From: Micromonospora luteifusca
Lineage (GTDB): Bacteria > Actinomycetota > Actinomycetes > Mycobacteriales > Micromonosporaceae
Assembly (NCBI RefSeq): GCF_016907275.1
Contig: NZ_JAFBBP010000001.1
Coordinates: 5,818,001 to 5,882,000, forward strand
Length of the DNA stretch: 64,000 nucleotides
Direction: 5' to 3'
Every line of letters begins with the position of its first letter. Position 1 is the first letter of the stretch. The notes under the pieces were generated by a model. It had not been told where the DNA came from and did not search any database. It saw only the letters and a list, made by a program, of their open reading frames with translations. This document shows, one piece after another, positions 29,867 through 46,457 of this stretch. The position numbers and the translations under genes were made by a program.

Positions 29867-30231
29867 GCGCTCAGTGGCCGTCGACCCGATCGGCCGGCTG
29901 CCAACACCCGTCGCGCGAGTGTGATGTGCCGTTGCCCAACCCAGTTTGCTGGATGAGGCGGCGACGACGATGATCCGCTCGCCGCCGATCAGCGGCGCGA
30001 GCCCACCGCTCGAATGGCGCAGGATCTGCCGCGGCGCGCAGACGCCGACGAAGAGGGGGAACCGATGACCGAATTCCTTCGCAGCGACGCCCGGACGGCT
30101 TGGGCCCACCACAGCTAAATGAAGCAGGCGCCCCCGGGGAATCAGCGGCGCCGAGCGCGGCGACGGGACGACGTGAGCGAGCGCAGTGATCGGACCAGCA
30201 GGCTCAGGTGCGAGTGTGGCGAGGGGAAGCG
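29867..30231. other. Intergenic region upstream of ROK gene
   Basis: No gene is supported. It contains the presumed promoter of the ROK kinase gene; no clear palindromic operator was found. Confidence 0.4.
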
Positions 30232-31155
30232 GTGAGCGAAGGCGCGGTGGTCGTCGCGTTGGATCTGGGCGGTACTGGCATCAAGGCCGCACTGGTCCGG
30301 GCGGATGGGACCAGCCATTACACCGAACGGCACGCCACCGGCGCTGATCGGGGTCCGGCGGCGGTCTTGGAGACCGTTCTGTCCGTCGCCGGGGGGCTGG
30401 CCGGCAAGGCCCGCGCCGATGGCTTGACTCCGGTGGCGGTGGGCATCGCGGTGCCCGGGGTGATCGACGAGGTTGCCGGCGTGGCGGTCTGGTCGGCGAA
30501 CGTCGGCTTCCGGGACGTACCGTTGCGGGACCTGGCGGTCGCGCGGCTCGGGCTGCCTGTGGCGCTCGGACACGACGTGCGGGTGGGCGGCCTGGCCGAG
30601 GCCCGCCTCGGCGCCGGGCGGGGTAGCCGGCACGTGCTCTTCGTCGCGATCGGCACCGGCATCGCCGCCGCTCACGTGGTCGGCGGGTCGGCTTACGCGG
30701 GCGCGCACGGCGCCGCTGGCGAACTGGGTCACATCGTGGTACGTCCCGGTGGGCCGCGCTGCGGCTGCGGCCAGCTCGGCTGTCTGGAGGCGGTCGCATC
30801 GGCTGCCGCGGTCGGCCGACGTTACGGGGAACTGTCCCGTACGCCCGCTACCGCGGCCGACGTCGCCGCGCGGGCCGCAGCCGGCGAGGAACTCGCTGGG
30901 CAGGTGTGGCGCGACACGGTCGACGCGCTCGCCGACGGGCTCCTCACCGGACAGACGATCTACGATGCCGAGGTGATGGTAATCGGCGGCGGGCTCGCCG
31001 AGGCTGGAGCCGTTTTGATCGATCCGCTCCGGGCGGCGCTGCGCGCGCGGCTTACGTTTCACCGGGAGCCGCGGCTGGCGCGGGCCGCACTCGGCGACGG
31101 GGCCGGCAGCCTCGGCGCCGCCCTACTCGCGCTCGACTACCTGCAGGCGTCGTGA
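30232..31155 (+). CDS. ROK-family sugar kinase
   Basis: A 307-residue ASKHA-fold kinase. The phosphate-1 motif VVALDLGGTGIKAALVRADG is at the N-terminus. The ROK signature with the zinc site is complete: GELGHIVVRPGGPRCGCGQL and GCLEAVAS carry the His and three Cys ligands. The catalytic region LGHDVRVGGLAEARLGAG has the base Asp. The adenosine motif is VIGGGLAEAG. ROK enzymes phosphorylate glucose, GlcNAc, ManNAc or GalNAc. With GH109 and AgaS nearby, N-acetylhexosamine kinase activity (an AgaK role) is the best inference. GTG 30232 with GAGGGGA is used. Confidence 0.9.
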   Translation: MSEGAVVVALDLGGTGIKAALVRADGTSHYTERHATGADRGPAAVLETVLSVAGGLAGKARADGLTPVAVGIAVPGVIDEVAGVAVWSANVGFRDVPLRDLAVARLGLPVALGHDVRVGGLAEARLGAGRGSRHVLFVAIGTGIAAAHVVGGSAYAGAHGAAGELGHIVVRPGGPRCGCGQLGCLEAVASAAAVGRRYGELSRTPATAADVAARAAAGEELAGQVWRDTVDALADGLLTGQTIYDAEVMVIGGGLAEAGAVLIDPLRAALRARLTFHREPRLARAALGDGAGSLGAALLALDYLQAS

Positions 31156-31480: not shown

Positions 31481-31744
31481 AGCCCGCTGCACCGTAAGTG
31501 ACGGTTTGCCGTGTTCGAGGCGGTGGTCTTCTGGTTGTATCTCGGCTCGCCAGCGCACACCGACTCTCGGTCCACAGTCCAGTCGCTGCTTGACGCCGTG
31601 CCGCGCGACGGGCGCAGCTCATCCAGCACCGAGCGGCTCACGCTGGACGGCTCGCGCAACGGCCGATCAACCGCGACACATCCTCGGGCAAGCGGCTGCC
31701 GGCCAAAGTGTTGACACCGCCGATGAGCATGCTCCAGAGTTACT

Positions 31745-31754
31745 GGACTAGTCC
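31745..31754. promoter_or_regulatory. Palindrome GGACTAGTCC upstream of the giant GH gene
   Basis: A perfect 10-bp palindrome in the context CTGGACTAGTCCGG, 37 bases before the ATG at 31792. Its layout recalls GntR-family operators; a target of the island's GntR/HutC protein is possible but the core differs from the site at 40376. Confidence 0.35.
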
Positions 31755-31791
31755 GGTATTCCGTTCGGTAATCCACACGAAGGTGGATCAA

Positions 31792-34700
31792 ATGGCCACG
31801 AGATCGGCAGGAAGAGCGGGGCTGTCGCTGCTAACGGTGGTGACTCTGGCGGCCAGCTTGCTGGCACAGGTATCCGAGGACGTCCAGGCCGCCGGCGTCC
31901 AGGGAGTCGGTGAGCAGACAGCCAGCGAGCAAACGGCTCACGGTCAGCCCGGCTCTCGCGGTGATCTGACCCTGCCCGACGGCTACGTCGATCGAGTGAA
32001 CGGAGCGCTGGAGCAGGGATCCGACCACTGGGGCGAGAAGTTGCTTGGCCTGCCCGACGGCCCGGCCATGACCAACGTCAAGCCGCTGCTGGTGCCGGCC
32101 AACCACGGTGGTACGACGAACGCCGCCTCGCCCTGGTACTACCTGCCCTTCACCTATCCGGCGCCGGACCCCAGCCGGTGGGCCGAGGAGCGGGACTTCT
32201 CGCTGCACGTCGCTGACGGCAGCGAATTGATGTCGCAATGGTCGGACTCGCGGGCGACGCAGCACGTCCGCTTCTTCGTCGGCGCGGGCGGGGCAGAGCG
32301 CTACGGCCAGGCCGAGGCGAGGTCGGGCGAACCCCGCCTGACCGGCGGGTACCTGCCGATCCTCGCCAACTCCTATCGTGACGCCGCCGGGGTCCGCTAC
32401 GAACGCGAGTCGTTCGTCACAGAACTCACCCCGGGTGGCCCGGCGGTCAGCATGCTCCGGTTCGTCATCAACGGGCCGGCGAAGGCGCACCCGCGGCTCC
32501 GGCTCAATGTGAGCCGCGACAAGGTGGCGGACGTCGTCGCCGAGCCGGGGCGGCTGACATTTGATGGAAAGACCGTGGTCGCGTACAGCGGCGCGGCGAC
32601 CTGGTCCGCGCCCGACCTGAGCTTCACGCCCGACCTGAGCCGCGGAAGGGCCGAGCTGTACCTGGTCGTGCCGAACGAGCCGGCCGCGCTGACCGCCGTA
32701 CGTCCGTCGGCCAAGCTGTACGACGCCGCGAAGTCCCGCACCAGCGACTACTGGACGGGGCAAATCAACGCCGGCGCCAAGATCAGGATCCCCGAGAAGT
32801 ACGCCGCGGACGCCATGCGCAGCACGCTGCTGAACAACCTGGTGATGGGCTTCAATCTGACCGTCGGGAACGGCTACGAGTCGCTGGACAAGTCCTTCGC
32901 CTTCGTGCCGGAGATCGCGGCGACGGTCACCTCGCTCGGCGACTTCGGCTACCAGGACAAGGCGCGCGCGAACCTCACCGAGATGCTGCGACGCGGCCAG
33001 GGCAGCTTCTTTCTCTCCTGGGAGCGCGGGATCAAGCTGCAGACGGCGGCGACGTACTACCTGCAGAGCAACGACGGGTCGTTGCTGCAGGAAAACCTGC
33101 CGACGTTCCGCGACTGGCTCGCCGACTTCAAGCGGCAACGCCTCGCGGACCCGAACGGTCTGCTGGCCAAGACTCGCTACGCCTCCGACATCCCGGAGCC
33201 GGTCTACGGCCTGCACCACCAGTCCGAGGTCTGGCGCGGTCTGCGCGACGTCGGTGTCGCGCTGCGGCTCCTGGGCCGTACCGACGAGGCGAAGCCGTTC
33301 CTCGACGAGGCTGCCGGCCTGCGTTCGTCGCTGCTGGGCGCGGTGGAGAAGTCGAAGACGGTGTTGCCGGACGGCTCGGTGTTCGTGCCGATCGCACTGC
33401 TGGACCCTGCGTCGTCGAAGCCGTACGACAAGGTGACCACCGATTTCCTCGGTAGCTACTGGAACCTGATCATGCCGTACGCGCTCGCGACCGGGTTGTT
33501 CGAGCCGGGCAGCGCGACGGCGACCGGACTGCGGGACTACCTCTACAAGCACGGCTCGCTGTTCCTCGGCCTCACCAGGTTCAACCTGTCGACCGCCGAT
33601 CCCGGTGTCTGCCAAAACATCCCGCACAACCAGTGGCCGGCGGTGCCTGGCTACAAGTCCAGCGGCATCGACCAGCAGTACGGCTACTCGTTGATGCGGT
33701 TCCTGGCCGACAACGCCGAGTCCGATCGCCTCGATCTGAGCTTCTACGGGATGCTCGCGCATGACCTCACGCCGCACACCTTCATCGGCGGCGAGGGCGC
33801 CACGATCTCACCGTGCCCGCAGTTCGGTGAGTACTACCGGTCGCAGTACTGGCCGCCGTTGTCGCCGAACAACGCCACCTACCTGGAGGCGCTGCGCGGT
33901 CTGCTGGTCAGTGAGGACCTGGACGCCGACGGCGTGCCGACCAGGCTGCACCTGGCGCCGGCCACGCCGCGGCCCTGGCTCGCGGATGGGGAGCGGATCG
34001 AGGTCGCCGACCTGCCCACCTCCTTCGGCAACGTCGGGTTCGCCTCCTCGTCCGAGCTGGCGGACGGCCGGCTGACCGTGCGGGTGAACCCACCGCGCGC
34101 GGCCGCCGGGCGGGCGCCGCTGACGGACGTGGTGCTGCACCTGCGCGCGCCGAGCGGTCACGAGCTGACCGGGGTCACCGTCGACAACCACCCGGTGGCA
34201 TTCGACGCCACGCGCGAGCTGGTCGACCTTGGCCGGCCGACGACGGCGGTCACGGTCCGGGCGACGTACCGGGCGACAAAGGTGGCCGACGCGCCGAGCG
34301 CGGAGGCCACGAAGGTGACGACTCCGCGTTCGCTGCTGGAGCCGGGTGAGACGTTCGCGCTGGACCTGGAGGTCGAGGCGCTCGGGCTGGGCACGGTCAG
34401 CGGCACCGCCGAGGTCGGCGTTCCGGCCGGGTGGGCGGTCACCGACTCGAAGCTGCCGTTCAGCGTGCGCAGCAACCAGAGACTGGCCTGGTCCGACCTC
34501 GCGACCTCGGTCCGGATTCCCACTGACGCGGCGCCCGGGACCTACCGGATCGACGTGGTCACCCGACCGTCCGGTGGTACGGCGCGGACCGCCTCGCTGT
34601 CGGTCCGGGTCGCCCGGCCGGACCCGGCGGACTACGCCGCGCTGGTGAAGCGGGACGAGCCGGTGGGCTACTGGCGGCTCGGTGACGCCCCGGGCCAGCC

Positions 34701-36096
34701 GGTGGCCGATGCCTCCGGCAACGGAAACACCGGTGCCTACCGTGGCAACGTCGGCCGGTCCCAGCCAGGGGCGATCGCCGACTCTGCCGACACCGCGGTC
34801 CGGTTGGACGACGGCCACGCTGAGATTCCGGACAGCGCCTCGCTCAGCATCACCGGCGCCTACACCCTGGAGTCGTGGATCAAGGACGCCGCGGGTGGAC
34901 CGCAGGGCATTGTCGAAAAGTACGACGGCAGTGACTGTCTGCCGTCGCGCAACGGCTACGCCCTGCGGCTGGTGAACGGCAACAAGCTGCAGGCGCTCAC
35001 GGTCGCCGACCAGGGGCAGGCCAGCGCGCCCAGCCCCCGCAGTGTCCAGCAGGGGCGATGGCATCACGTCGCGGCAGCGTATGACGGAACGACGCTGCGG
35101 ACGTACCTCGACGGGCAACTGCAAGCGTCGACTCCGGTGGCCAAGGCACCGACTGACGGCAGGGGCAGCCTCAAGCTGGGTGCCCGTGGAGACGACGCGT
35201 TGGACCGCTTCGTCGGCAGCTTGGACGAGGTCGCCATCTACGACAAGGCCCTGACCCCGGGCCAGATCGACTCGCACTACATCAAGGGCGTGCTCGGCAA
35301 CCCCGGCCAGTCGCCCAGCGCACCGCAGTTCGGTAGGACCACCGCGCGGAGCACCTCATCGCCGGCTCCGGCGGGCTCGGCACCCAGGCCGACGTCGACG
35401 AGTCAGCCCCCGGCGGTCACCGGCGAGTCCTCCTACCCGGCGCAGGTGCTGGCCGACAAGCCGATCGGCTACTGGCGGCTGGGTGAGCGATCCGGCACGA
35501 GCGCCGAGGACTCCGCCGGCACCGGCAACCGCGGCGCCTACACCGACGCGGTGACCCTGGGCCGCCCAGGCGCGTTGACCGGCGATTCGGACACCGCCGC
35601 CGAGCTGACCGGCGGCCACATCGCCGTACCGGACTCGGCCTCGCTGAGCGTCAGCGGTTCGTTCACCGTCGAGGCATGGGTGAATCTCAAGGATGTCTGC
35701 GCGCAGTACAGCGTGGTCGAGAAGTACGACGCGCCTGCCTACAACGGTTACGCGTTGCGCGTCCTGCCCGGCGGCAGATTGAGCGCCCTCACGTTGGGCG
35801 TAGCCGGACAGTTGGCGTCGGTCGACGGGCGGACGGTGGTCACGCCGGACGAGTGGCACCACGTTGCCGCGGTCTACGACGGCTCGACCGTCTCGGTCTA
35901 CCTCGACGGGCGACTCGACGGCTCGGCCCCCGCAAAGGTGGACCCGACCGACGGAGCCGGCAGCCTCAAGCTGGGGGCCCGTGGTGACGACGCCGGTGCC
36001 AGGCTCGCCGGGTTGCTCGACGAGGTTGCCGTCTACGACCATGCCCTGACCGCCGGCGAAATCGCGCAACACCACTCGGTCGGCACGACGGGCTGA
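31792..36096 (+). CDS. Giant secreted six-hairpin glycosidase-like protein with two LamG domains
   Basis: A 1434-residue exported protein. Signal peptide: residues 1 to about 33 (cleavage near VQA). Then an N-terminal beta-rich domain (about 60-325), a helical (alpha/alpha)6-type region (about 326-740) with repeats such as FAFVPEIAATVTSLGDFGYQ, SFFLSWERGIKLQTAATYYL and YGLHHQSEVWRGLRDVGVAL, a NEW3-like Ig domain (about 840-940), a LamG/concanavalin-like domain (about 947-1167), a Ser/Pro/Thr linker, and a second LamG (about 1213-1434). The LamG pair would bind glycans. Catalytic family is not recognised; GH63/GH95-like six-hairpin glycosidases are nearest in layout. ATG 31792 has AGGTGG and gives a clean signal peptide; upstream ATGs do not. 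Confidence 0.8.
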   Translation: MATRSAGRAGLSLLTVVTLAASLLAQVSEDVQAAGVQGVGEQTASEQTAHGQPGSRGDLTLPDGYVDRVNGALEQGSDHWGEKLLGLPDGPAMTNVKPLLVPANHGGTTNAASPWYYLPFTYPAPDPSRWAEERDFSLHVADGSELMSQWSDSRATQHVRFFVGAGGAERYGQAEARSGEPRLTGGYLPILANSYRDAAGVRYERESFVTELTPGGPAVSMLRFVINGPAKAHPRLRLNVSRDKVADVVAEPGRLTFDGKTVVAYSGAATWSAPDLSFTPDLSRGRAELYLVVPNEPAALTAVRPSAKLYDAAKSRTSDYWTGQINAGAKIRIPEKYAADAMRSTLLNNLVMGFNLTVGNGYESLDKSFAFVPEIAATVTSLGDFGYQDKARANLTEMLRRGQGSFFLSWERGIKLQTAATYYLQSNDGSLLQENLPTFRDWLADFKRQRLADPNGLLAKTRYASDIPEPVYGLHHQSEVWRGLRDVGVALRLLGRTDEAKPFLDEAAGLRSSLLGAVEKSKTVLPDGSVFVPIALLDPASSKPYDKVTTDFLGSYWNLIMPYALATGLFEPGSATATGLRDYLYKHGSLFLGLTRFNLSTADPGVCQNIPHNQWPAVPGYKSSGIDQQYGYSLMRFLADNAESDRLDLSFYGMLAHDLTPHTFIGGEGATISPCPQFGEYYRSQYWPPLSPNNATYLEALRGLLVSEDLDADGVPTRLHLAPATPRPWLADGERIEVADLPTSFGNVGFASSSELADGRLTVRVNPPRAAAGRAPLTDVVLHLRAPSGHELTGVTVDNHPVAFDATRELVDLGRPTTAVTVRATYRATKVADAPSAEATKVTTPRSLLEPGETFALDLEVEALGLGTVSGTAEVGVPAGWAVTDSKLPFSVRSNQRLAWSDLATSVRIPTDAAPGTYRIDVVTRPSGGTARTASLSVRVARPDPADYAALVKRDEPVGYWRLGDAPGQPVADASGNGNTGAYRGNVGRSQPGAIADSADTAVRLDDGHAEIPDSASLSITGAYTLESWIKDAAGGPQGIVEKYDGSDCLPSRNGYALRLVNGNKLQALTVADQGQASAPSPRSVQQGRWHHVAAAYDGTTLRTYLDGQLQASTPVAKAPTDGRGSLKLGARGDDALDRFVGSLDEVAIYDKALTPGQIDSHYIKGVLGNPGQSPSAPQFGRTTARSTSSPAPAGSAPRPTSTSQPPAVTGESSYPAQVLADKPIGYWRLGERSGTSAEDSAGTGNRGAYTDAVTLGRPGALTGDSDTAAELTGGHIAVPDSASLSVSGSFTVEAWVNLKDVCAQYSVVEKYDAPAYNGYALRVLPGGRLSALTLGVAGQLASVDGRTVVTPDEWHHVAAVYDGSTVSVYLDGRLDGSAPAKVDPTDGAGSLKLGARGDDAGARLAGLLDEVAVYDHALTAGEIAQHHSVGTTG

Positions 36097-36172
36097 CCCT
36101 CGACGTCACCTGGCTCCGGCGCCGGGCGGATATCGAGCCACGGTTGGCCCAAACAAAATGACTGGAGGTTTG

Positions 36173-39100
36173 ATGTTTTCGTGGCGCTCGTTTCGTGGAT
36201 ATCGCCGCACCGGCGTATTGGCCGGATCGGTCGCGCTCGCGATTAGCCTGGTGAACGCTTCGCCGGCGCGGGGCGAGGCCCAGGCTCCTGATCAAGCGGG
36301 TGTGGCGCGCATTCTCCCAGCGCCGCAGCGGGTAGAGCCGCGCCCGGAATCTGTTGTCCTGTCCGCCACCGTCGACGTCGTCGCGGGTGCGGCCGTGGAT
36401 TCGGCGGCCCGGGACTCGCTCGTGGACGTGCTCCACGCGCGTGGAGTCACCGCCCGGGTCGTCGGCAGCGCGGAAATGTCGACGACGCGTCCGTTGATCA
36501 TCCTCGGCGGTCCGAACGAGACGTCGGCAAGCGGCACCGCACTGAGTGCTCTCGACGTACAAGGGCCGGCGGGGTTGCCCGGTGAGGGGTACGTGCTGGC
36601 GGCCGGGCACGATCGGCTTGGGCGACCGCGGATCGTCCTCGCGGGTGTGGACGGCGCTGGCACCTTCTACGCCGTTCAGTCATTGCGTCAGTTGCTCGTG
36701 TCGAAGGGCTCCCGGGTGGCCGTCAACGGTGTGGCGGTGCGCGACTGGCCGGGTTACCAGGTTCGTGGGGGGATGGAGTCCTTCTACGGACCGGTGTGGT
36801 CGCAGGAGGATCGGCGCTCGCAGATCGAGTTCCTGGCCCGGCACAAGATGAACCAGTTCTTCTACGGACCGGCGGACGACCTGCGTACCGGATCGCTCTG
36901 GGACTCCCGGTACGACGAGGCGGAGCTGGGCCGGCTGAAGGAGATCGTCGACCTGGCGGCGTCCCGTCATGTCGACTTTGTGTACCGGATCTCGCCGGAG
37001 GCGCCCATGGCACCTGGCCAAGGGATCTGCCACGTACGCGACGCCGACCGGGCCAAGCTGCTGGCCCGCCTGACGCAGTTGTGGGAGATCGGGGTCCGCA
37101 ACTACGTCATCGCCTGGGATGACGTCTCCGGCAACTTCGCGTGCCAGGAGGACCGGGACGCCTACCAGGGCGATCCGTCGCCACTCGCGGCCGCCCAGGC
37201 CGGGGTCACCAACCTGGTCCAGCGCGAGTTCATCAAGAAGCGGCCCGGCGCCAGCCGCCTGGTGGTCGTGCCGACGGAGTACTGGGGCATGACGCCCTCG
37301 CCGTACAAGAGCCGGTTCGACGAGTTGGTGAGCACCGAGGTCGACCTCTACTGGACGGGCCCGGAGGTGGTCTCGCCGAGCATCACCGAGGACGACCTCC
37401 GGGCCGCTCAGAAGGCCTGGCCGCGGCACCGGATCATGATCTGGGACAACTACCCGGTCAACGACTACAGCCCCAACCGGCTGCTGTTGGGTCCACTGGT
37501 GAACCGTGACGCCGGCATGGCGGCCAACGTTGTCGGCATCTCGTTCAACGAACTCGTCCAGCATCAGGAAGCCTCGCAGATCCCACTCGGCACCCAGGCC
37601 GACTACGCCTGGAACCCCGTGGCCTACGACGCGGAACGCTCGTGGACGCGGACCCTTCAGATCGTCGGCGGCGACGCGTACGAGGAACTGCGGCTCTTCG
37701 CGGAGAACAACAAGGCCAGCGCCCTGGACAACATCGCACGGCCGCAGTTCGCCGCTCTCATCGAACGGCTCATCGCCGACTACTCGGCGGGCCGAGCGGT
37801 GGAAGCCCAACTTGACCAGCTCGACCGCGAGCTGCGCCGTCTGGAGGCGCTCCCGACCACACTTCGGGCGCGGCTCGACAACCCGCTGCTGCTCCAGCAG
37901 ATCGGGCCCTGGCTGGACCGGGTGGGCGCCACCGGCCAGGCAGGTCGGGCTGCCCTGGGCATCCTGCGGGAGCAGGACCGGGGGAACGGCGAAGCTGCCT
38001 GGCGGGCCCGGCGGGAGCAGGCGCGTAACCGCGACATCCTCGACCGGACGTGGCACCAGATCAGTCCTGGCCCGGTCGACGATCTCCTCAACTTCGCGGC
38101 CGCGCAGAGCGACGGCTACCTCGGTGACCGCTGGTACGGTGACCTCGGAACCCCCACGGGCCTACCGGCTGCCGTCGAGGGGGCCGCGCTGGGCAACGTG
38201 ACCGACCGGCGCGACGACACGGCCTACGTCGCGGCTGGCAAGCCGCAGGATGGCGATGCGATCACGGTACCGATCACCAAACCGCACCGGCTGTCGGCGG
38301 TGACCGTGGTGCAGGACGCGACCGCCCCCGCCGACGGAGTGATCCAGGCACTGGTCGACGGCGCCTGGGTGGATCTCGGACCGCTCGCTGAGGGCTTCAC
38401 GAAGGTGCCGGCGGCGGACCTGGCGGCCAGCGCGGTCCGGATCCGGTGGGCGTCGGGCAGCGTGGTCCCGCGCATCTACGAGATCGTCCCGCGCTACTCC
38501 GACGTGTTCAGCGGTACCGTCTCGGTCGATCCGCCGGGGTCGCTCATCGCGCCCGGCAAGACGAAGCGGTTCCAGGTCGCCTTCGAGGTGTTCGCGGATC
38601 ACCAGATCCGTGGACAGGTGACCGGAACCGGCCCAGACGGCTGGAACATCGACCCGGCGACGCAGGTGTTCCGGGCCCAGCCGGGTGGCCGGACCATCGT
38701 CGCGAGCGTGCCGGTGGAGGTGACCGTCCCGGCTGGCGCGAAGCCAGGGCGCTACCAGGTCACGGTGGCCTTCAACGAGGACGGCGCGCCACCGGTGAAC
38801 GTGTCGCTGCCCATCCTGGTCGGGGAGCAGAGCTACCCGAATCTCGTGACCGGCGCGGACCCGGCCGGCTACTGGAGGCTCGGCGACCCGGCCGGCTCCA
38901 GTACCGCCGTGGACAGCTCCGCCAGCGGGCAAGACGGGACCTACCTGGCCGGCGCCCATCCGGGCATCGAGGGTGCGATCACCGGTGACCGGGCAGCAAG
39001 CCTCTCCGCCGGCTACATCGAGGCGCCACGAACCCCGCGGACCGACCTCAAGGGTGCTTTCACGCTGGAGGCCTGGGTGAAGCTCGGCACGCTCGCCCCC

Positions 39101-39496
39101 GCGCCGGGGCAGGCGGTCATCGAGAGTTACGCCGGGCCGGCGGTCAACGGGTACGCCCTGCGGGTGACCGACGGCGTCCTGCAGGCGTGGTCGCTCGGCG
39201 CGGCCGGGCAGGGGTACGGCCTCGTGACCGGCCGTACCCGGCTGACGGCGAAGGAGTGGCACCACGTCGCCGCCGTCTTCGACGGCTCGCGACTGACCGT
39301 GTACCTCGACGGTGTCGCGGACAACAGCGTCGCGACGTCGGTGTCGCCAGGCACCGGTACGGCGAGCGTCAAGCTCGGTGGCCGCGGGGACGACACCTCC
39401 CAGCGGCTGCAGGGTGACCTGGACGAGGCTGCGATCTACGACCGTGCCCTGACCTCGGCCGAACTCGAAACGCACTACCTCGCCGGTCTCGGCTGA
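36173..39496 (+). CDS. Secreted GH84-type beta-N-acetylglucosaminidase with LamG domain
   Basis: A 1107-residue exported enzyme. Domains: signal peptide (1 to about 40), GH20b-like N-domain (about 45-175), GH84 catalytic barrel (about 185-470) with VRGGMESFYGPVWSQEDRRS at its start and the catalytic Asp-Asp pair at 316-317 (YVIAWDDVSGN), helical post-catalytic domain, a discoidin-like CBM (about 650-770), a NEW3-like Ig domain and a C-terminal LamG (about 890-1107). GH84 enzymes (NagJ, hyaluronidase/O-GlcNAcase) remove beta-GlcNAc by substrate-assisted catalysis. The start at 36173 has GGAGG at good spacing; 36158 is the alternative. Same strand as the giant GH, 76 bases after it, so probably co-transcribed. 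Confidence 0.92.
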   Translation: MFSWRSFRGYRRTGVLAGSVALAISLVNASPARGEAQAPDQAGVARILPAPQRVEPRPESVVLSATVDVVAGAAVDSAARDSLVDVLHARGVTARVVGSAEMSTTRPLIILGGPNETSASGTALSALDVQGPAGLPGEGYVLAAGHDRLGRPRIVLAGVDGAGTFYAVQSLRQLLVSKGSRVAVNGVAVRDWPGYQVRGGMESFYGPVWSQEDRRSQIEFLARHKMNQFFYGPADDLRTGSLWDSRYDEAELGRLKEIVDLAASRHVDFVYRISPEAPMAPGQGICHVRDADRAKLLARLTQLWEIGVRNYVIAWDDVSGNFACQEDRDAYQGDPSPLAAAQAGVTNLVQREFIKKRPGASRLVVVPTEYWGMTPSPYKSRFDELVSTEVDLYWTGPEVVSPSITEDDLRAAQKAWPRHRIMIWDNYPVNDYSPNRLLLGPLVNRDAGMAANVVGISFNELVQHQEASQIPLGTQADYAWNPVAYDAERSWTRTLQIVGGDAYEELRLFAENNKASALDNIARPQFAALIERLIADYSAGRAVEAQLDQLDRELRRLEALPTTLRARLDNPLLLQQIGPWLDRVGATGQAGRAALGILREQDRGNGEAAWRARREQARNRDILDRTWHQISPGPVDDLLNFAAAQSDGYLGDRWYGDLGTPTGLPAAVEGAALGNVTDRRDDTAYVAAGKPQDGDAITVPITKPHRLSAVTVVQDATAPADGVIQALVDGAWVDLGPLAEGFTKVPAADLAASAVRIRWASGSVVPRIYEIVPRYSDVFSGTVSVDPPGSLIAPGKTKRFQVAFEVFADHQIRGQVTGTGPDGWNIDPATQVFRAQPGGRTIVASVPVEVTVPAGAKPGRYQVTVAFNEDGAPPVNVSLPILVGEQSYPNLVTGADPAGYWRLGDPAGSSTAVDSSASGQDGTYLAGAHPGIEGAITGDRAASLSAGYIEAPRTPRTDLKGAFTLEAWVKLGTLAPAPGQAVIESYAGPAVNGYALRVTDGVLQAWSLGAAGQGYGLVTGRTRLTAKEWHHVAAVFDGSRLTVYLDGVADNSVATSVSPGTGTASVKLGGRGDDTSQRLQGDLDEAAIYDRALTSAELETHYLAGLG

Positions 39497-39514: not shown

Positions 39515-40306
39515 TCAGCCTTCCTGAGACGGGGGGCTGACGTGCATCCGGATGGCGTAGCGGTCGCCGCGGTAGAGCGACCGGCCGTACTCCACGACCT
39601 TTCCCATGTTGTCAACCGAGATGCGCTCGATCAGGAACGCCGCGGCGTCCCCGGCGACGTCGAGCCGTTTTGCCTCGGTGTCGGTCAGCCGGGCGATGGT
39701 GACGGTCTGCCGCGCCGATTCCAGCCGCACCCCGAAGACGCGGCTCAGAACCTCGTACAGCGAGTCGTCGCGCTCCATCACCTTCAGCAGGCTGGGGAAC
39801 CGTGCCGCGGAGAGGTTCGTCCGCTCCAGCGCCATTGGGATGCCGTCCGCCGTACGGATCCGCTCGATGTAGTGGGTTGGGTCGCCCGGGGTGATGTCGA
39901 GGTTGGCGGCGACCAGGCGGCTGGCCGGGCGGGTGCGGGCGTGGTACGACCTGGCACCCGGTGTCATGCCGCGCATCCGCATGTCCTCGCTGAACGAGCG
40001 GAAGATCTCCGAGTGGGTCAGCGTGGGATGCTGCACGAAGGTCCCACGCCCGGGCACCCGCCGCACCATTCCCTTTGACTCCAGCGCGTCGATGGAGCCC
40101 CGGACGGTCATCCGGGCGACTCCGAACCGTTCGGCGAGGACCCGTTCCGATGGGAGCAGCGCACCGTCCCGCGAGTTCAGGACCATGGCGGTGAGGACGT
40201 CCCTGATGTGCTCGCCCTTGCTGCCGCTGTGCTCCGCCGGCAGAAACTCAAGCGCCCCGTCGCTCGGCTCGTGTCGCGTCCTTGGCACGGACCGTTCCCC
40301 TTCCAA
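39515..40306 (-). CDS. GntR/HutC-family regulator
   Basis: A 263-residue regulator with a GntR winged helix (GALLPSERVLAERFGVARMT, VRGSIDALESKGMVRRVPGR with the wing GTFVQHP) and a UTRA ligand domain. UTRA members NagR and DasR bind GlcN-6-P or GlcNAc-6-P, which fits this locus. It converges on the GH84 gene (18 bases) and is divergent from the second ABC importer. A HutC-type operator lies between it and the importer. Confidence 0.9.
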   Translation of the reverse strand: MEGERSVPRTRHEPSDGALEFLPAEHSGSKGEHIRDVLTAMVLNSRDGALLPSERVLAERFGVARMTVRGSIDALESKGMVRRVPGRGTFVQHPTLTHSEIFRSFSEDMRMRGMTPGARSYHARTRPASRLVAANLDITPGDPTHYIERIRTADGIPMALERTNLSAARFPSLLKVMERDDSLYEVLSRVFGVRLESARQTVTIARLTDTEAKRLDVAGDAAAFLIERISVDNMGKVVEYGRSLYRGDRYAIRMHVSPPSQEG

Positions 40307-40375: not shown

Positions 40376-40385
40376 GGTCTATACC
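40376..40385. promoter_or_regulatory. HutC/DasR-like operator
   Basis: CCGGTCTATACCAGT holds the core GTCTATAC, matching the GT-N-TA-N-AC pattern recognised by HutC-subfamily GntR proteins and close to the DasR box (TGGTCTAGACCA). It sits 63 bases before the binding-protein start and 70 bases before the regulator start, so one site can serve both. Confidence 0.65.
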
Positions 40386-40447
40386 AGTATTAACCTCGGC
40401 TGGTCTGCCACGTCCAGCGGGTGGCGGCCACGACGATCGGAGATGCG

Positions 40448-41716
40448 ATGCCCAGAAGACGCGGTGTGTTGGGGGCGGCCGCGCTGCTCGCCTTCGCCCT
40501 TACTGCGTGCGCGCCAGGCGGCGGGGGCGGCAGCGACGCCGTCAACCTTAAGGTCTGGGGCTGGCGGCAGGAGGATGTCGCGGCGTACAAGAAGATCTTC
40601 CAGATCTACGAGAAGGCCCACCCGGGCGTCAAGGTGGAGTACCTCCCCTACAAGAACACCGAGTACGACACCATCCTCAAGACCGGCCTCACCGACTCCA
40701 GCGGCCCTGACGTCGCCCAGTTGCGCTCCTACGGGCTGCTCCAGCCGCTGGTCGGCGCCGGTAGCCTGGTGCCCCTCGACGGTCCGGTCGACAAGCTCAG
40801 CGGCTTTCCGAAGCAAATCCTCGACGGCGCGAGGGGCGAAAAGGACGGACACGTCTACGGCGTTCCGTTCGCGCTCCAGACGCTGCACGTCATCTACAAC
40901 AAGAAGATCTTCGCCGACAACGGCATCGCCGCCCCCACCAGCTGGGCGGATATGATCGCGGGTTTCGACAAGCTCAGCAAGGCCGGCGTCACCCCGCTGG
41001 CGAACACCGTCACCGACGGGTGGATGCTGCCGATCGAGCAGGAAATCTTCGGCGCCACGACGTACGGCGGTCCCGACTACCTCACCAAGATGCTCAACGG
41101 CTCGGCGAAGTTCACCGACGCGCCCTGGACGAAGTCCCTCGAGACCTGGAAGAGCATTCAGAAGTACTGGCCGGCGCAGGCGTCCGGGGTGAGCTACACG
41201 GACGCGCAGGCCCTCTTCACCTCCGGCCGGGCCGCCGCGTTCCCCGGTGGGGTGTGGGAGATCGCCGGATTCCAGAAGGCCAACCCGCAGCTGGACCTGG
41301 GCATCTTCAACGCGCCTCCCGCGCCCGGCGCGGCGGTCGACAAGACGCTGGTTCCCGGTTACGTCGACGGGTCGTTCGGCGTCTCGGCGAAGTCGCCCCA
41401 CAAGGACGCGGCCCTGGACCTCGTGCGGTGGATGGCGACCGAGGAGTTCGGCCGGGTCCTGTCCACCGAGCTCCGCCAGATCTCCCCGGTACCGGGCGTC
41501 GAGCCGCAGGACGAACTCCTGGCCCAGGCGCTCAAGGACTACCAGGCGAACCCGAGCCCGTATGTCACCTACGCGTACTTCTCCGGCGGCACACCCACCG
41601 CCTGGGACCTCGCCTCCGAGGCGTTCTCCGACTACGTCCTCGGTCGACGCAACCCTGCTGACGCGGCCGCACACATCCAACGAGGGGTCGATCAGTGGTT
41701 CCGGCCCAAGAACTGA
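40448..41716 (+). CDS. Sugar-binding lipoprotein of second ABC importer
   Basis: A 422-residue solute-binding lipoprotein: PRRRGVLGAAALLAFALTAC ends in the lipobox LTAC, followed by a Gly linker and a CUT1-type binding protein (NLKVWGWRQEDVAAYKKIFQ; YNKKIFADNGIAAPTSWADM). ATG 40448 is preceded by GGAG. Its probable ligand is an N-acetylhexosamine (oligo)saccharide released by the GH84 and giant GH. First gene of a seven-gene operon reaching 46457. Confidence 0.92.
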   Translation: MPRRRGVLGAAALLAFALTACAPGGGGGSDAVNLKVWGWRQEDVAAYKKIFQIYEKAHPGVKVEYLPYKNTEYDTILKTGLTDSSGPDVAQLRSYGLLQPLVGAGSLVPLDGPVDKLSGFPKQILDGARGEKDGHVYGVPFALQTLHVIYNKKIFADNGIAAPTSWADMIAGFDKLSKAGVTPLANTVTDGWMLPIEQEIFGATTYGGPDYLTKMLNGSAKFTDAPWTKSLETWKSIQKYWPAQASGVSYTDAQALFTSGRAAAFPGGVWEIAGFQKANPQLDLGIFNAPPAPGAAVDKTLVPGYVDGSFGVSAKSPHKDAALDLVRWMATEEFGRVLSTELRQISPVPGVEPQDELLAQALKDYQANPSPYVTYAYFSGGTPTAWDLASEAFSDYVLGRRNPADAAAHIQRGVDQWFRPKN

Positions 41717-42645
41717 CGGTCCGTCCTGCCCGGCGGTCACGCCGCCGGGTAGGACGGGTCTCGGCAGGATGGATCACCGCCTTCTGCGTGCCGGCCTTCG
41801 CGCTCTACGGCCTCTTCCTCGTGGTACCGCTCGTCACCGCCTTCTACTACGGGCTGTTCCAGTGGGACGGCACTCGTCAGGCGGGGTTCGTCGGAATCGG
41901 CAACTACCAGGAGATTTTCACCCGCTATCCGTTACGCGACGAGATCCCGGCCGCGCTCGGGCACAACGTCCTCTTCTTCGTCGGCACCATGGCGATCCAA
42001 AACACCATCGGACTGGGCCTGGCGCTGCTCCTGCACCGCAATCCCCGGGGCAAGCGGCTGTTCCAGACGCTCTTCTCGCTTCCCTACCTGATCAGCCCGC
42101 TGATCGTCGGGTACATCTGGTCGCTCCTGCTGAGTCCCACCTTCGGCCCAATCAACTTCGCGCTCCGAGCGGTCGGTCTGGACGCGTGGGCGCGACCCTG
42201 GCTCGGTGAGCCCGACCTCGCGCTGCCCGTACTGATCCTGGTCAACGCCTGGCAGTGGATCGGCGGACCGATGCTCATCTTCGGCGCCGCCCTGGGCGGC
42301 ATCCCGCAGGAGTTGGAGGAGGCGGCCGCAATGGACGGCGCCTCAGCGACCCGGGCGTTCTGGAGCATCCGGTTCCCGCTCCTGATGCCGGCGGTCGGCG
42401 TGATCACCGTGCTGACGTTCATCGGCTGCTTCAACATCTTCGACCTCGTCTACGCGCTGGGCGGTTCCGACGGAGGCCCCGGCGGCGCCATGGACGTGCT
42501 GGGACTGCTCTACTACCGGACCGCCTTCCAGGGCGGCAGCAACGCGATCGGAGAGTCGTCGGCGTTGGCCATGCTGATCTTCGTGCTCATCTTCGGGGTC
42601 TCCCTGGCCCTGGAGCGGGCGCTGCGCCGTCGGGAGGTCCACTAG
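41695..42645 (+). CDS. ABC sugar permease (MalF type), second importer
   Basis: A 316-residue CUT1 permease with six helices and the EAA motif ELEEAAAMDGASATRAFWSI. GTG 41695 lies inside the end of the binding-protein gene (22-base overlap) and follows GAGGGG, implying coupled translation. Pairs with the MalG-type protein directly downstream. Confidence 0.92.
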   Translation: MVPAQELTVRPARRSRRRVGRVSAGWITAFCVPAFALYGLFLVVPLVTAFYYGLFQWDGTRQAGFVGIGNYQEIFTRYPLRDEIPAALGHNVLFFVGTMAIQNTIGLGLALLLHRNPRGKRLFQTLFSLPYLISPLIVGYIWSLLLSPTFGPINFALRAVGLDAWARPWLGEPDLALPVLILVNAWQWIGGPMLIFGAALGGIPQELEEAAAMDGASATRAFWSIRFPLLMPAVGVITVLTFIGCFNIFDLVYALGGSDGGPGGAMDVLGLLYYRTAFQGGSNAIGESSALAMLIFVLIFGVSLALERALRRREVH

Positions 42646-43542
42646 ATGGACACCCTGCGCGCCGCCCCCCGCACGGCATCGAAAGCCAGGGCCGAGTCCC
42701 CACCTCCGCGCGGCACCCGGCAGCGTTCGCTGCTCCGCACCGCCGGCGGCCAGCTCATCCTGTGGGCCTACGCCGCGGTCGCCTTCGGCCCGCTGCTGCT
42801 GGTGCTGATCGGATCGCTGCGGCCCAACGCGGAGATCCTCCGGGCACCGGTCGGGATGCCCAGCTCGTTCGACCTGAGCAACTACACCCGCGCGTGGCAG
42901 ACCGCGTCGATCTCGACGTACTTCGTCAACTCGCTGGTCGTCACCTGCGCCTCGGTGGCACTGTGCGTCAGCGTGTCGGCGATGGCCGCCTACGCCCTGT
43001 CCAGGTGGAAGTTCCGGGGCCGCGCACTGCTGGCGGCGTTCTTCCTGTCCGGGTTGATGATCCCCGCGAAGCTCGGCCTGCTGCCGGTGTTCTACATGTT
43101 TCAGTCGATGGGACTGATCGACAGCCGGATCGGGTTGGTACTGCTCTACGCGGCGAGCGGCATCCCGTTCTCGGTCTTCGTGATCATGGGCTTCATGCGG
43201 GGACTGCCCGGCGAACTGGAGGAGGCCGCGCGGATCGACGGGGCACACGAGGGCCGGCTGTTCGTGTCGATCGTCCTGCCCCTGATGCGGCCGGCGCTCG
43301 CGGTGGCCACGGTCTTCCAGTTCGCGCCGACCTGGAACGACTTCTTCTATCCGTTGGTGCTGCTCCGCAGCGGGGACAAGTACACCATCCCGGTCGGGCT
43401 GACCCGGTTCTTCGGTGAGTTCGCCGCCGACCGCGGCACCCTGTTCGCCGGGCTCGTGATCGCCCTGGTGCCGCTGGCCGTGGTGTTCGCACTCGCGACC
43501 AAGCAGATCGTCGCGGGCCTGACGGCAGGGATGTCGCGTTGA
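42646..43542 (+). CDS. ABC sugar permease (MalG type), second importer
   Basis: A 298-residue CUT1 permease. The EAA loop reads ELEEAARIDGAHEGRLFVSI. ATG 42646 follows the previous stop with no gap. No ATPase gene is in the operon, so a shared MsiK-type ATPase is presumed. Its stop overlaps the TTG of the next gene. Confidence 0.93.
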   Translation: MDTLRAAPRTASKARAESPPPRGTRQRSLLRTAGGQLILWAYAAVAFGPLLLVLIGSLRPNAEILRAPVGMPSSFDLSNYTRAWQTASISTYFVNSLVVTCASVALCVSVSAMAAYALSRWKFRGRALLAAFFLSGLMIPAKLGLLPVFYMFQSMGLIDSRIGLVLLYAASGIPFSVFVIMGFMRGLPGELEEAARIDGAHEGRLFVSIVLPLMRPALAVATVFQFAPTWNDFFYPLVLLRSGDKYTIPVGLTRFFGEFAADRGTLFAGLVIALVPLAVVFALATKQIVAGLTAGMSR

Positions 43543-44474
43543 CGACGATGATCACCATCGACGGTGGCAAGTCCGAGCTTCGGCTTCTGCTCCGTACCCC
43601 AACGGGCCGCCACCTCGGTGTCGGCCCAGGCTTCTCCTACCGGCCCGAGGAGGACGGCGTCGGCCGGATCCTGGCCGCAGTTCGTGGCGCCGCGGCGACG
43701 ATCTCCCTTCCCGCCCGGGTGGCGGGTGTGGTGGCCGGCCTGACCGGCGTACCGGGGGAGCACGCTGAGCGCCGACGTCTCGCCGTCGCCCTCGAGCGGC
43801 AGTTCGGCGGCCCGGCCGTGGTGGTGGAGGACAGCATCCTCGCGCACGCCGGCGCTCTCGGCGGTCCCGGCGTGCTGCTGTGTGTCGGGACCGGGACGAC
43901 CGTGCTCGCGGTGGACGCCGACGGTGACCATGCCCGGCTTGACGGCTGGGGTCCCCACCTCGGTGACCGCGGCAGCGCGTACGCCCTCGGGCTGGCCGGA
44001 ATGCGCGCCGCGACCGCGTCGTACGACCAGGTCGGGCCGGCGACCGTACTGGTCGAACGCCTCGTCGCGGCGCTCGGCGGCGTCGACCTGGCCTCGCTGC
44101 AGCGGTACTACCGGGACCCGGCGATGATCCCGCGTACGGCCGCCTTCGCCCGCGCGGTGATCGACGCGGCCGCCCAGGCCGACCCGGTGGCGGGCCGGAT
44201 CTGCGTCGAGGCCGCGACCGCTCTCGCCGACGCGGTGCGCGCGGCAACCGATCGGCTCGGTCTCAGCGGCGCAGCCCGCCGGGTGTCCTTCAGCGGACGG
44301 CTGCTGACCCCGGGAAACGCCCTCCACCATGCACTGTCGGCCGAACTCGGGGCCAGCGGGCTGCCCCTGGTCACGCCCAGAGCGGAGCCGCTCGATGGCG
44401 GTCCGGTGCTGCTCAGCGGCGCCGCCCCCTATGCACGCCTACTGGCGAGCCAGGAATCCGGTGGCGACGCATGA
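43539..44474 (+). CDS. BadF/BadG-family N-acetylhexosamine kinase
   Basis: A 311-residue ASKHA ATPase of the BadF/BadG/BcrA/BcrD type, as in mammalian and bacterial GlcNAc kinase. The phosphate-binding start is ITIDGGKSELRLLLRT, the second phosphate loop VLLCVGTGTTVLAVDADG, and the DRGSAYALGLAG segment (HLGDRGSAY) is characteristic of GlcNAc-kinase-like members. It likely phosphorylates the imported sugar at O6 or O1. The start is either TTG 43539, overlapping the permease stop, or ATG 43548. Translationally coupled to neighbours on both sides. Confidence 0.85.
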   Translation: MTTMITIDGGKSELRLLLRTPTGRHLGVGPGFSYRPEEDGVGRILAAVRGAAATISLPARVAGVVAGLTGVPGEHAERRRLAVALERQFGGPAVVVEDSILAHAGALGGPGVLLCVGTGTTVLAVDADGDHARLDGWGPHLGDRGSAYALGLAGMRAATASYDQVGPATVLVERLVAALGGVDLASLQRYYRDPAMIPRTAAFARAVIDAAAQADPVAGRICVEAATALADAVRAATDRLGLSGAARRVSFSGRLLTPGNALHHALSAELGASGLPLVTPRAEPLDGGPVLLSGAAPYARLLASQESGGDA

Positions 44475-45715
44475 GGGCCGGACACGGGGTGGCACGTCTC
44501 GAGGTCGTGCCCGGAGAACCCATGGGTGGGTACGCCGACCGCGCCGACGGCGTCCAGAACGTGCTCGACCCGCTGGAGGTCCATGTCGTGACCTTCGCCG
44601 ACGAGGACCACCGGTTCGCGCTGGTGGTCGCGGACCTGATCTGCGTCAACGTCGACGTCGTCGACCGGATTCGGACCGCCATGCGCAACGTCGGCGTGCA
44701 GTCCTGCTGGGTCGCCGCCACACATACCCACGCGAGCCCCGAGGCGGGCTGCAGCCCCGGCGGCGAGGCCACCCCACGGCACGTCGCCGACCGGCTCGAA
44801 GCCGCAACGCTCGTGGCCGTGCGATCCGCCATGGCGTCCGAGCGTGCCGCCCGACTCGACTCCGCCCGCACGCTGGTACCCAAGCTGGCGGGTCACCGCA
44901 ACATCGCTGACCCGGGTCCCCTGGACATTCCCGTCGACACCATCGTGGTCACCGCAGGTACCAACGTGGTGGGCTTGGTAGTGGTCTCACCGGTCCACCC
45001 GACCATCCTTCCCGCCGACAACAACCAGGTGAGCGCCGACCTCAACGGCGGCATCCGCCGGGCACTGTCCACACCTGACAGGTGGGTGGTCGTCGCCACC
45101 GGCGCGGCCGGCGACATCAGTACCAGGCACACCCGTCAGGGACGGGGACTCGACGAGGTGGACCGGCTCGGCGCCTGGCTGGCCGACCGGGTCGAACCGG
45201 TGTCGCCACGAGTCAGCAGAGGCACCCCGACGCCGGTACGCCCGCCGGTCTCGCGAACAGTGGCGCTTGCGCCGAAACAGCGAGCTGAGCTTCAAGCCGC
45301 TGTGCGCCAGGTCCCGCCGCCAAAGAACCAAGACGAACGCATCCACCGGGTTCTGCAACAGGGACTGCGAATCGCGGAGGAACAGGCCGCCCGCCAGCGC
45401 ACGGAACCGTATGTAATCGACGTAGAGGCGGTGGACCTCGACGGGATCACGATGGTGGCGGTTCCCGGCGAGCTGTTCCTGGAGCTGGGCGAAACGATCC
45501 GTTCCGCAGCGGCGGACCAGGCTAGGAAGACTGTGGTACTCGGCTACACGAACGGCTACCTCGGCTACCTGCCCACCCGCGACACGCAACCCTGCTACGA
45601 AACCTATGCCAGTCCCGTCACCTCGGGCAGCGGCGAGATCATCGTCGAAGCCGCCGTCGAGACGGCCGTAGAGGCCGTCCGCAACCGTGAACAACCCAGG
45701 AGGATCAGTGCCTGA
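44471..45715 (+). CDS. Leaderless neutral-ceramidase-like zinc amidase
   Basis: A 414-residue protein similar to the N-terminal catalytic domain of neutral/alkaline ceramidase but without a signal peptide or the C-terminal Ig domain. Ceramidase active-site motifs are all present: AATHTHAS (His85, His87), VSPVHPT (His176), AAGDIST (Ser217, where ceramidases have GDVS), MVAVPGELF (Glu334) and GYLGYLPT (Tyr366). It should therefore be a Zn-dependent N-acyl hydrolase acting in the cytoplasm. Its operon has a kinase before it and a SIS isomerase after it but no NagA-type deacetylase, so N-acetylhexosamine(-phosphate) deacetylation is a plausible role. That role is inference. Confidence 0.8.
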   Translation: MRAGHGVARLEVVPGEPMGGYADRADGVQNVLDPLEVHVVTFADEDHRFALVVADLICVNVDVVDRIRTAMRNVGVQSCWVAATHTHASPEAGCSPGGEATPRHVADRLEAATLVAVRSAMASERAARLDSARTLVPKLAGHRNIADPGPLDIPVDTIVVTAGTNVVGLVVVSPVHPTILPADNNQVSADLNGGIRRALSTPDRWVVVATGAAGDISTRHTRQGRGLDEVDRLGAWLADRVEPVSPRVSRGTPTPVRPPVSRTVALAPKQRAELQAAVRQVPPPKNQDERIHRVLQQGLRIAEEQAARQRTEPYVIDVEAVDLDGITMVAVPGELFLELGETIRSAAADQARKTVVLGYTNGYLGYLPTRDTQPCYETYASPVTSGSGEIIVEAAVETAVEAVRNREQPRRISA

Positions 45716-46457
45716 GCCCGCCTACGCCAACATCGCCCGGACCGCACTCGACCAAGTCCTGGCAACACAACTCGACGCCATCGAGGCAGCAGCCGGGCTC
45801 GTCGCCGACGCCATCACCGCCGGAGGTGTACTACAGGCGTTCGGGACCGGCCACTCGCGAATCGTCGCCCTCGAGCTCGCGGCGCGCGCCGGCGGGCTCG
45901 CCGCCGTCAGCATGCTCGCGGTCAAGGATCTCGTGATGTTCGGTGGCGACGAACCGGGGCCGATCCTTGATCCGACGTACGAGCGCGAGTCCGGCCTGGC
46001 CGAGCGGATCTACCACCTCGCCGCGCCCTCCCAGCACGACGCCTTCCTGATCGTTTCCAACTCCGGCATCAACGCCGCCGTCATCGAGATGGCGACGCTG
46101 GCCCGCAAGCACGCGCATCCGATCGTGGCGGTCACCTCACTGGCGCACACTCGCTCGGCCGGTGCCCGTTCGACACAGGGACCGCATCTCGCTGACCTGG
46201 CGGATGTGGTCATCGACAACCAAGCCCCGGCGGGGGATGCGGCATTGGAGATCAACCCAGGAGTTCGGATAGGGGCGGTTTCGTCGCTCACCGGAGTCCT
46301 CATCGCGCAGCTGCTCACGGAACTGATATGCGGTCAGTTGCTGCGCCGCGGCATCGATCCGCCCGTCCACGTGTCCGCGAATCTCGCTCAGGGCGACGCG
46401 CACAATCGCGTCCTCTATGAGCGATACCGCGATCAGGTCCGCCCGATTGAACCCTGA
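45708..46457 (+). CDS. SIS-domain phosphosugar isomerase/etherase-like protein
   Basis: A 249-residue single-SIS-domain protein: GVLQAFGTGHSRIVALELAA is the phosphosugar loop and DAFLIVSNSGINAAVIEMAT the second Ser-rich loop, like GmhA/MurQ-related proteins often annotated as sugar isomerase domain proteins. GTG 45708 with AGGAGG four bases before it is preferred over ATG 45687. It overlaps the ceramidase-like gene by eight bases and is the last gene of the importer operon. It may isomerise or deaminate the hexosamine-phosphate product. Confidence 0.82.
   Translation: MPEPAYANIARTALDQVLATQLDAIEAAAGLVADAITAGGVLQAFGTGHSRIVALELAARAGGLAAVSMLAVKDLVMFGGDEPGPILDPTYERESGLAERIYHLAAPSQHDAFLIVSNSGINAAVIEMATLARKHAHPIVAVTSLAHTRSAGARSTQGPHLADLADVVIDNQAPAGDAALEINPGVRIGAVSSLTGVLIAQLLTELICGQLLRRGIDPPVHVSANLAQGDAHNRVLYERYRDQVRPIEP

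Follow-up and report, generated by a model that had tools for sequence, protein, structure and literature searches.

A cytoplasmic branch of the neutral-ceramidase fold, linked to a NagS/MurQ-type SIS protein, is a candidate for amino-sugar catabolism

In neutral ceramidases, a zinc-bound water attacks an N-acyl amide. What could such a fold be doing in the cytoplasm, encoded between a sugar kinase gene and an SIS gene? The question is raised by a gene, here called CER, in a stretch of 64,000 nucleotides of the Micromonospora luteifusca genome (the window; contig NZ_JAFBBP010000001.1, positions 5,818,001 to 5,882,000). A previous reading from the letters of this DNA alone, hereafter the sequence-only reading, had proposed that the ceramidase fold was recruited in the cytoplasm and that CER is the 'missing' N-acetylhexosamine deacetylase. 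In our judgement, a known fold has here acquired a new functional branch, one that serves amino-sugar catabolism and is firmly linked to a partner of the NagS/MurQ type. In the literature searched, no description of a ceramidase-like sugar amidase was found, and likewise nothing for UPF0309.

CER is a distant and leaderless relative of neutral ceramidases

The CER gene (44471..45715, + strand, ATG start) encodes 414 amino acids and is predicted from homology to specify a leaderless ceramidase-like Zn amidase. The translation carries His85, His87, His176, Ser217, Glu334 and Tyr366, as well as Arg143 and Tyr376, and all eight match in three PF04734 members (L191, L193 and L195; 477-621 bits). 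These references come from five matched places, of which L194 is partial and was left out and L192 yielded no sequence by pattern. The residue roles (His, His, Glu and Tyr as zinc ligands; Ser, Arg and Tyr as catalytic residues) and, His97/His99 apart, the Pseudomonas aeruginosa numbering follow the accepted assignment. The active-site residues are the same in all 32 sequences of an alignment that contains the window protein. In 89 aligned relatives, some only about 21% identical, the His, Arg, Glu and Tyr residues are kept almost universally, while Ser217 is frequently replaced by Asn or another residue.

Single-sequence matches to ceramidases are weak, which makes CER a distant branch: Pfam PF04734 scores 32.0 bits (E 7.2e-8) and narrowly misses the curated cut-off of 32.1, and a single-sequence PDB search reached a ceramidase only at E 0.48, ranked below a chance PduT-like match. 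A profile built from the 32 sequences settled this, with P. aeruginosa neutral ceramidase at E 7.2e-11 and the human enzyme at E 2.2e-6. The PF04734 label is also present on many close homologues of CER, and no NCBIfam model, the NagA model TIGR00221 included, matched it. The CER profile found one copy in the window genome; a genome search with PF04734 returned nothing, not even the CER gene itself, so its silence carries no evidential weight.

No leader was detected by hydropathy (the best 19-residue value is 0.92 among windows starting in the first 42 residues), and Pfam reported PF04734 only, with no second domain. The start is common to most homologues, 28 of the 32 rows beginning within the first three alignment columns. 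The residues in place, the alignment, the PF04734 members and the hydropathy together confirm the leaderless ceramidase-like reading frame with a full motif set from which the sequence-only reading had started.

The operon and its amino-sugar setting

The operon begins with three genes recognised by domain matches, for an ABC sugar-binding protein (40421..41716, +) and the sugar permeases A (41695..42645, +) and B (42646..43542, +). They are followed by a BadF-type sugar kinase (43539..44474, +), whose best PDB relative is the MurNAc/GlcNAc kinase 8zo3 (62.9 bits), then by CER and by an SIS_2 protein of the NagS/UPF0309 family (45708..46457, +, GTG start; NF002805, 254 bits). The BadF stop overlaps the CER ATG at 44471, and the CER stop overlaps the SIS GTG at 45708, which is preceded by AGGAGG. 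These overlaps on both sides of CER confirm the coupling of the three genes that had been claimed.

On the opposite strand, before the binding-protein gene, lies a GntR/UTRA regulator gene (39515..40306). The best PDB relatives of its product are DasR (132.9 bits) and YvoA/NagR (115.1 bits), which sense GlcN-6P and GlcNAc-6P. Like these proteins, it combines HTH and UTRA domains with a dre-type operator-like site, to which binding is predicted; operator-like sites were called with the dre consensus. This putative operator, GGTCTATACCAGTAT (40376..40390, +), lies upstream of the binding-protein gene, and of the 39 loci scanned (L002-L040), 16 have a dre-like site at the equivalent place. Within the window alone, the motif occurs no more often than expected by chance. 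The whole genome holds one exact site and six with two mismatches, fewer than the 12 matches of a reversed-pattern control, so that no wider dre regulon can be claimed.

Nearby lies a gene for a secreted GH84 beta-N-acetylglucosaminidase with a LamG domain (36158..39496, +; NAGidase 277 bits), a possible supplier of the imported sugar. GH84 has the same neighbourhood in six other loci (L002-L004 and, encoded on the opposite strand, L018-L020), and dre-like sites stand before or beside it in all six; before the window's own GH84, no operator-like site with at most two mismatches was found. Further upstream is a gene for a large secreted LamG protein (31708..36096, +; 1462 aa), with no catalytic Pfam domain recognised in a stretch of about 800 N-terminal residues. 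It contains a dre-like palindrome at 31742-31757 with 3 mismatches of 14, and its membership of the regulon is doubtful. A strong ROK-family reading frame is found at 30190-31152, upstream of the secreted enzymes. Taken together, GH84, the DasR/NagR-like regulator with its operator-like site and the aga-type PTS of other lineages (see below) strongly support an amino-sugar context for CER, as had been proposed.

CER and SIS genes are linked across genomes

We examined 102 loci, comprising the best 80 of 103 encoding stretches from a genome-contig scan and 22 further regions. Twenty of the latter were chosen from the 43 places matched in a set of 301 genomes (36 of them with a match) from the phylum of a Ktedonobacter-type genome (G025). 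From eight other places in Actinomycetota, the two with SIS beside CER (L138 and L139) were taken at length; the remaining six (L085-L090) showed no SIS in their short flanks and stand outside the 102. Absences of neighbour genes apply to the sequence of each contig, some contigs being short, and neighbour-gene labels were verified with curated models for a sample of loci.

An SIS gene lies within 3 kb of CER in 48 of the 102 loci (48/108 when L085-L090 are counted), always on the same strand (48/48), and the two proteins are fused in five Nonomuraea protein clusters. The co-occurrence with SIS genes that the sequence-only reading had named as a check is seen in these loci. BadF genes are found near CER in 36 of the 102 loci, 33 of them also with SIS, and sorbose/aga-family PTS genes are present in 7 of the 15 loci that have SIS but no BadF. 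Within 346 Actinomycetota genomes, 9 have CER-type genes, with SIS alongside in 3 of these 9, and 44 have the SIS family; the 36 genomes with CER-type genes among the 301 of the G025 phylum include many of the SIS-less kind. On a quick SIS tree, the linkage with CER (50 linked, 35 not) changes at least 7 times, which indicates that the pairing was gained or lost repeatedly. This tree and the CER tree (105 rows kept, those under 300 aa left out) contain many weak forks.

Several CER relatives deserve mention in their own right. One genome of the G025-phylum set carries three tandem CER-like genes (L187, 5341-9931), the homologues P0065 and P0068 are labelled with HPr (PF00381) and PF09843 domains, and HAD/Cof-type phosphatase genes lie near CER in L042, L044 and L063.

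The SIS partner resembles NagS without belonging to it

A characterised relative of the partner is SCO4393 (NagS), a GlcNAc-6P dehydratase that converts GlcNAc-6P to 6P-chromogen I, a product deacetylated by NagA in Streptomyces (PLoS Biol 2025, PMC12680351). In that study, NagS binds GlcNAc-6P and not GlcN-6P, its alanine mutants at H53, R64, E94 and D179 are inactive, and the phosphate is held by three serines, including Ser119 and Ser121. The same study relates NagS to MurQ and defines it by at least 58.7% identity within a Streptomycetaceae clade; of the distant relatives assayed (25.7-35.7% identity), one had negligible and two had no GlcNAc-6P dehydratase activity.

Over aligned parts, the window SIS shares 34% identity with SCO4393 and 35% with BH3325. 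It thus falls outside the NagS definition (34% vs at least 58.7%) and stands apart from NagS on the tree. It retains H53, S54, R64, E94, S119, S121, D179 and N228 of NagS. All 44 CER-linked SIS rows, one of which is a second copy of the window gene, also have the four residues essential in NagS; matches under about 500 bases and identical ones were left out of this set. The position of NagS Ser91 is Pro in the window protein and in 35 of the 44 rows. Given that the three distant relatives are nearly or fully inactive on GlcNAc-6P in PMC12680351, the substrate of the CER-linked branch may differ. By its sequence, the partner classes as a single-domain protein of the NagS/MurQ type and not as a known deaminase, which would make the SIS product the likelier substrate of CER.

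The window genome has two more NagS-family SIS genes without CER (G000:C1:1743721-1744452 and 1071017-1071754), the second accompanied by ABC genes, an RpiR regulator and a divergent BadF. Ten neighbours of SIS paralogues were checked for a MurNAc role, and only a MurB-like gene was found. In another genome, an SIS gene recorded as L092/L123 (G120:C1:87168-87899) is 51% identical to NagS, has all nine NagS residues and adjoins a nagA-like gene. Its host, an actinobacterium, belongs to a different family from the one in which our sample has its clear NagS orthologues, and NagS activity outside Streptomycetaceae is accordingly a possible prediction from this sequence.

An arginine signature points to a probably shared phosphate

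CER carries the signature S217-T-R219-x-x-R222 plus R290, present in 40 of 43 SIS-linked loci vs 6 of 45 others; the three arginines are not present in the three true ceramidases (L191, L193, L195). Residues S119/S121 of SIS and R219/R222 of CER covary: with some loci contributing two SIS genes, 45 pairs are SS/RR, 5 are NY/G[AP], none is mixed and 2 are unreadable. In the loci of the second type (L036, L084, L174, L175 and L178), SIS is without Ser119 and Ser121, and CER has Gly at 219 and Ala or Pro at 222. No BadF or PTS genes were seen near these five loci, other kinase families being possible, and L036 contains a phosphofructokinase-type gene. In L174 and L175, the operon consists of genes for a sodium symporter, a GlcNAc 2-epimerase, a NagB-like protein, SIS, a NagA-like protein and CER, which perhaps carry out the same chemistry on unphosphorylated sugars.

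The joint variation suggests that CER and SIS probably share a phosphorylated substrate, and Arg219 and Arg222 may contact its phosphate; the sugar-phosphate substrate of the sequence-only reading is to this extent supported as probable. The type-1 signature comes close to forming a single clade (a branch with support 89, 48 of whose 51 rows carry it), type-2 SIS forms one, and type-2 CER requires three label changes (one possible), so that few independent events lie behind the covariation.

A Bacillales branch of CER (L048, L054, L058, L061, L062, L064, L067, L068 and L071-L074) has Asn-Ala and neither Arg222 nor Arg290. No SIS gene was found near it, and it is probably a different function of the same fold.

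A proposed route in which SIS acts before CER

From these elements, CER may reasonably be expected to remove an N-acyl group from a phosphorylated intermediate of amino-sugar breakdown, whether before or after SIS acts. In the complete route that we favour, the ABC transporter would import an N-acetylhexosamine, probably GlcNAc, perhaps freed by GH84, and BadF would phosphorylate it, most likely at O6. SIS would then act on the phosphosugar, probably by abstraction of H2 and elimination of the C3 substituent; the 2,3-unsaturated enamide so formed would resemble 6P-chromogen I. CER, as a cytoplasmic Zn-dependent amidase, would hydrolyse the N-acetyl amide of this product, its phosphate being held by Arg219 and Arg222 and perhaps by Arg290. 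The enamine left by CER would lose ammonia spontaneously. By analogy, the ceramidase mechanism suits such a removal of acetyl.

This complete route is put forward tentatively, with rather less than even confidence. It draws support from the kept catalytic residues, the frequent and strand-consistent linkage with SIS, the fused clusters, the essential NagS residues in all CER-linked rows, the arginine signature and its covariation with SIS, the repeated changes of linkage, the regulator with its operator-like site, and the replacement of ABC transporter and BadF by a PTS in other loci. That CER acts on the SIS product is more likely than that it acts on GlcNAc-6P. The order of SIS first and CER second is favoured because NagS does not bind GlcN-6P, and SIS followed by a deacylase has a precedent, as NagA is able to deacetylate the NagS product (both in PMC12680351). 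The route is weakened by the near or full inactivity of NagS relatives at 25.7-35.7% identity in the same study, the window SIS standing at 34% with Pro at Ser91, and by the near-single clades behind the covariation, which may reflect one or few events. It is also weakened by SIS lying beside CER in only 3 of the 9 CER-bearing Actinomycetota genomes, by nagA-like genes near CER in other lineages (five loci also with nagB-like genes), and by an operon without an enzyme for 3-deoxy-hexosulose phosphate.

A more far-reaching claim is doubtful: that these genes make up an undescribed third N-acetylhexosamine route, from kinase or PTS through SIS dehydration to a 6P-chromogen I-like enamide and ceramidase-fold deacylation, yielding acetate, ammonia and 3-deoxy-hexosulose-6-phosphate, by-passing NagA and NagB and making a nutrient path out of what is a toxic side reaction in Streptomyces. 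If the proposal is true, the neutral-ceramidase fold has a cytoplasmic branch acting on sugar phosphates, a protein group mostly named 'hypothetical' gains a function, and the distant NagS relatives that are inactive on GlcNAc-6P in PMC12680351 gain a partner enzyme and a pathway.

NagA genes and the alternative readings

The statement that the window has no NagA/AgaA-type deacetylase holds: no nagA-like reading frame was found in it. The absence of nagA alongside CER more generally was not borne out. The window genome has one nagA match (268 bits) 3 Mb from CER, adjoined by a ROK gene; no matching dre-like operator was found near it, so that a strong nagA in the same regulon, named in the sequence-only reading as counting against it, is not what we see. 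Among 46 genomes that carry CER or a relative of it, this one included, 40 have nagA over the cut-off. In the remaining six, G017, G018, G019 and G026 score 203-221 bits vs 225.65, G044 has the gene in two pieces, and G037, a MAG that may be incomplete, has CER-SIS and nagB and no real nagA match. Lachnospiraceae were sampled for nagA absence, and CER occurs there in 4 of 299 genomes, too few for the test. For nagB, 6 of 43 genomes are over the cut-off and 25 have a match at 1e-20, a level at which the window genome has none.

Of the 15 SIS-linked loci that lack BadF, 9 have a nagA-like gene no more than 8 kb from CER, and five of the 15 also have a nagB-like gene; the 36 BadF loci have 0 nagA-like genes. 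The nagA-like genes score above the cut-off in L026, L032, L036, L039 (opposite strand) and L065, below it in L174 and L175, and were recognised by a custom profile only in L176 and L178. CER is thus not a simple replacement of NagA, and NagA loss does not explain it, though no nagA-like gene was found in BadF loci. Of the sequence-only reading, the cytoplasmic recruitment of the fold is supported, and the role of 'missing' deacetylase is left weak by the genomic nagA match and the counts above.

These counts bear on the alternative that CER deacetylates N-acetylhexosamine-6-phosphate itself, as a non-homologous NagA, SIS then isomerising or deaminating the product, so that BadF, CER and SIS form a complete kinase-deacetylase-deaminase path. 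The three-enzyme operon is indeed self-contained, BadF loci have no nagA-like gene, the window genome has no nagB match, and G037, possibly incomplete, fits as well. In L141, which has no CER, SIS is paired with NagA, BadF and GntR are divergent, and NagA occupies the CER slot. We nevertheless consider it unlikely, given nagA over the cut-off in most genomes, the nagA-like and nagB-like genes in SIS-linked loci without BadF, an SIS of the single-domain NagS/MurQ kind, and the failure of NagS to bind GlcN-6P (PMC12680351).

The clusters that unite CER, SIS, nagA-like and nagB-like genes (L032, L036, L174, L175 and L178) are best accounted for by another alternative. CER would cleave an amide-linked substituent upstream of GlcNAc-6P, such as a muropeptide's peptide or the asparagine in GlcNAc-Asn, SIS would remove the C3 substituent or open the ring as MurQ does, and the pair would feed GlcNAc-6P to NagA and NagB. 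The kinship of NagS with MurQ (PMC12680351) and of BadF with a MurNAc/GlcNAc kinase agree with it. So do a Peptidase_M14-like (carboxypeptidase-like) gene adjoining CER in a Desulfurococcales locus (L039, 632-1831), a gene of the same cluster in a second such locus (L043, 281-1573), and, next to SIS-CER in L139, an ABC ATPase whose C-terminus is of the oligopeptide-transporter kind. The L039 gene and the L139 ATPase raised our estimate of this alternative and lowered those of the favoured route and of the general claim of N-deacylation in either order with SIS. It remains improbable: the importer is of the sugar type in the window and in other BadF loci, GH84 and the DasR-like regulator indicate GlcNAc, and outside L039 and L139 a sample of the neighbouring genes revealed neither a peptidase nor a peptidoglycan hydrolase.

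Finally, an ordinary ceramidase or lipid amidase placed by chance in a sugar operon would account for the PF04734 homology and the complete active site, but is scarcely credible for a leaderless protein with no second domain reported by Pfam, a conserved operon, an SIS fusion and three arginines in place of other residues of ceramidases.

Comparison with known systems

The favoured SIS-then-CER route can be set against four known systems. With MurNAc catabolism through the MurNAc-6P etherase MurQ, the locus shares an SIS family related to MurQ (PMC12680351) and a BadF resembling MurNAc/GlcNAc kinase; it differs by a sugar-type importer and by the lack of peptidoglycan hydrolases in the loci sampled. 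With NagA, a GlcNAc-6P deacetylase of the amidohydrolase family, CER would share the deacetylation of a phosphorylated amino sugar, whereas no sequence match relates the two and NagA is often encoded near CER outside BadF loci. NagS and the window SIS have in common the eight residues listed above, but the latter is 34% identical, has Pro for Ser91 and is partnered by CER, while in Streptomyces the NagS product goes to NagA. The fourth system is neutral ceramidase (PF04734; structures 2zws from P. aeruginosa and 4wgk from human), whose zinc ligands and catalytic residues CER has in the same order. Neutral ceramidases have a secretion signal and a C-terminal domain; CER, judged by hydropathy and Pfam, has neither, just misses the family threshold (32.0 vs 32.1 bits), belongs to a sugar operon, and carries S-T-R-x-x-R in place of the S-P-N of ceramidases.
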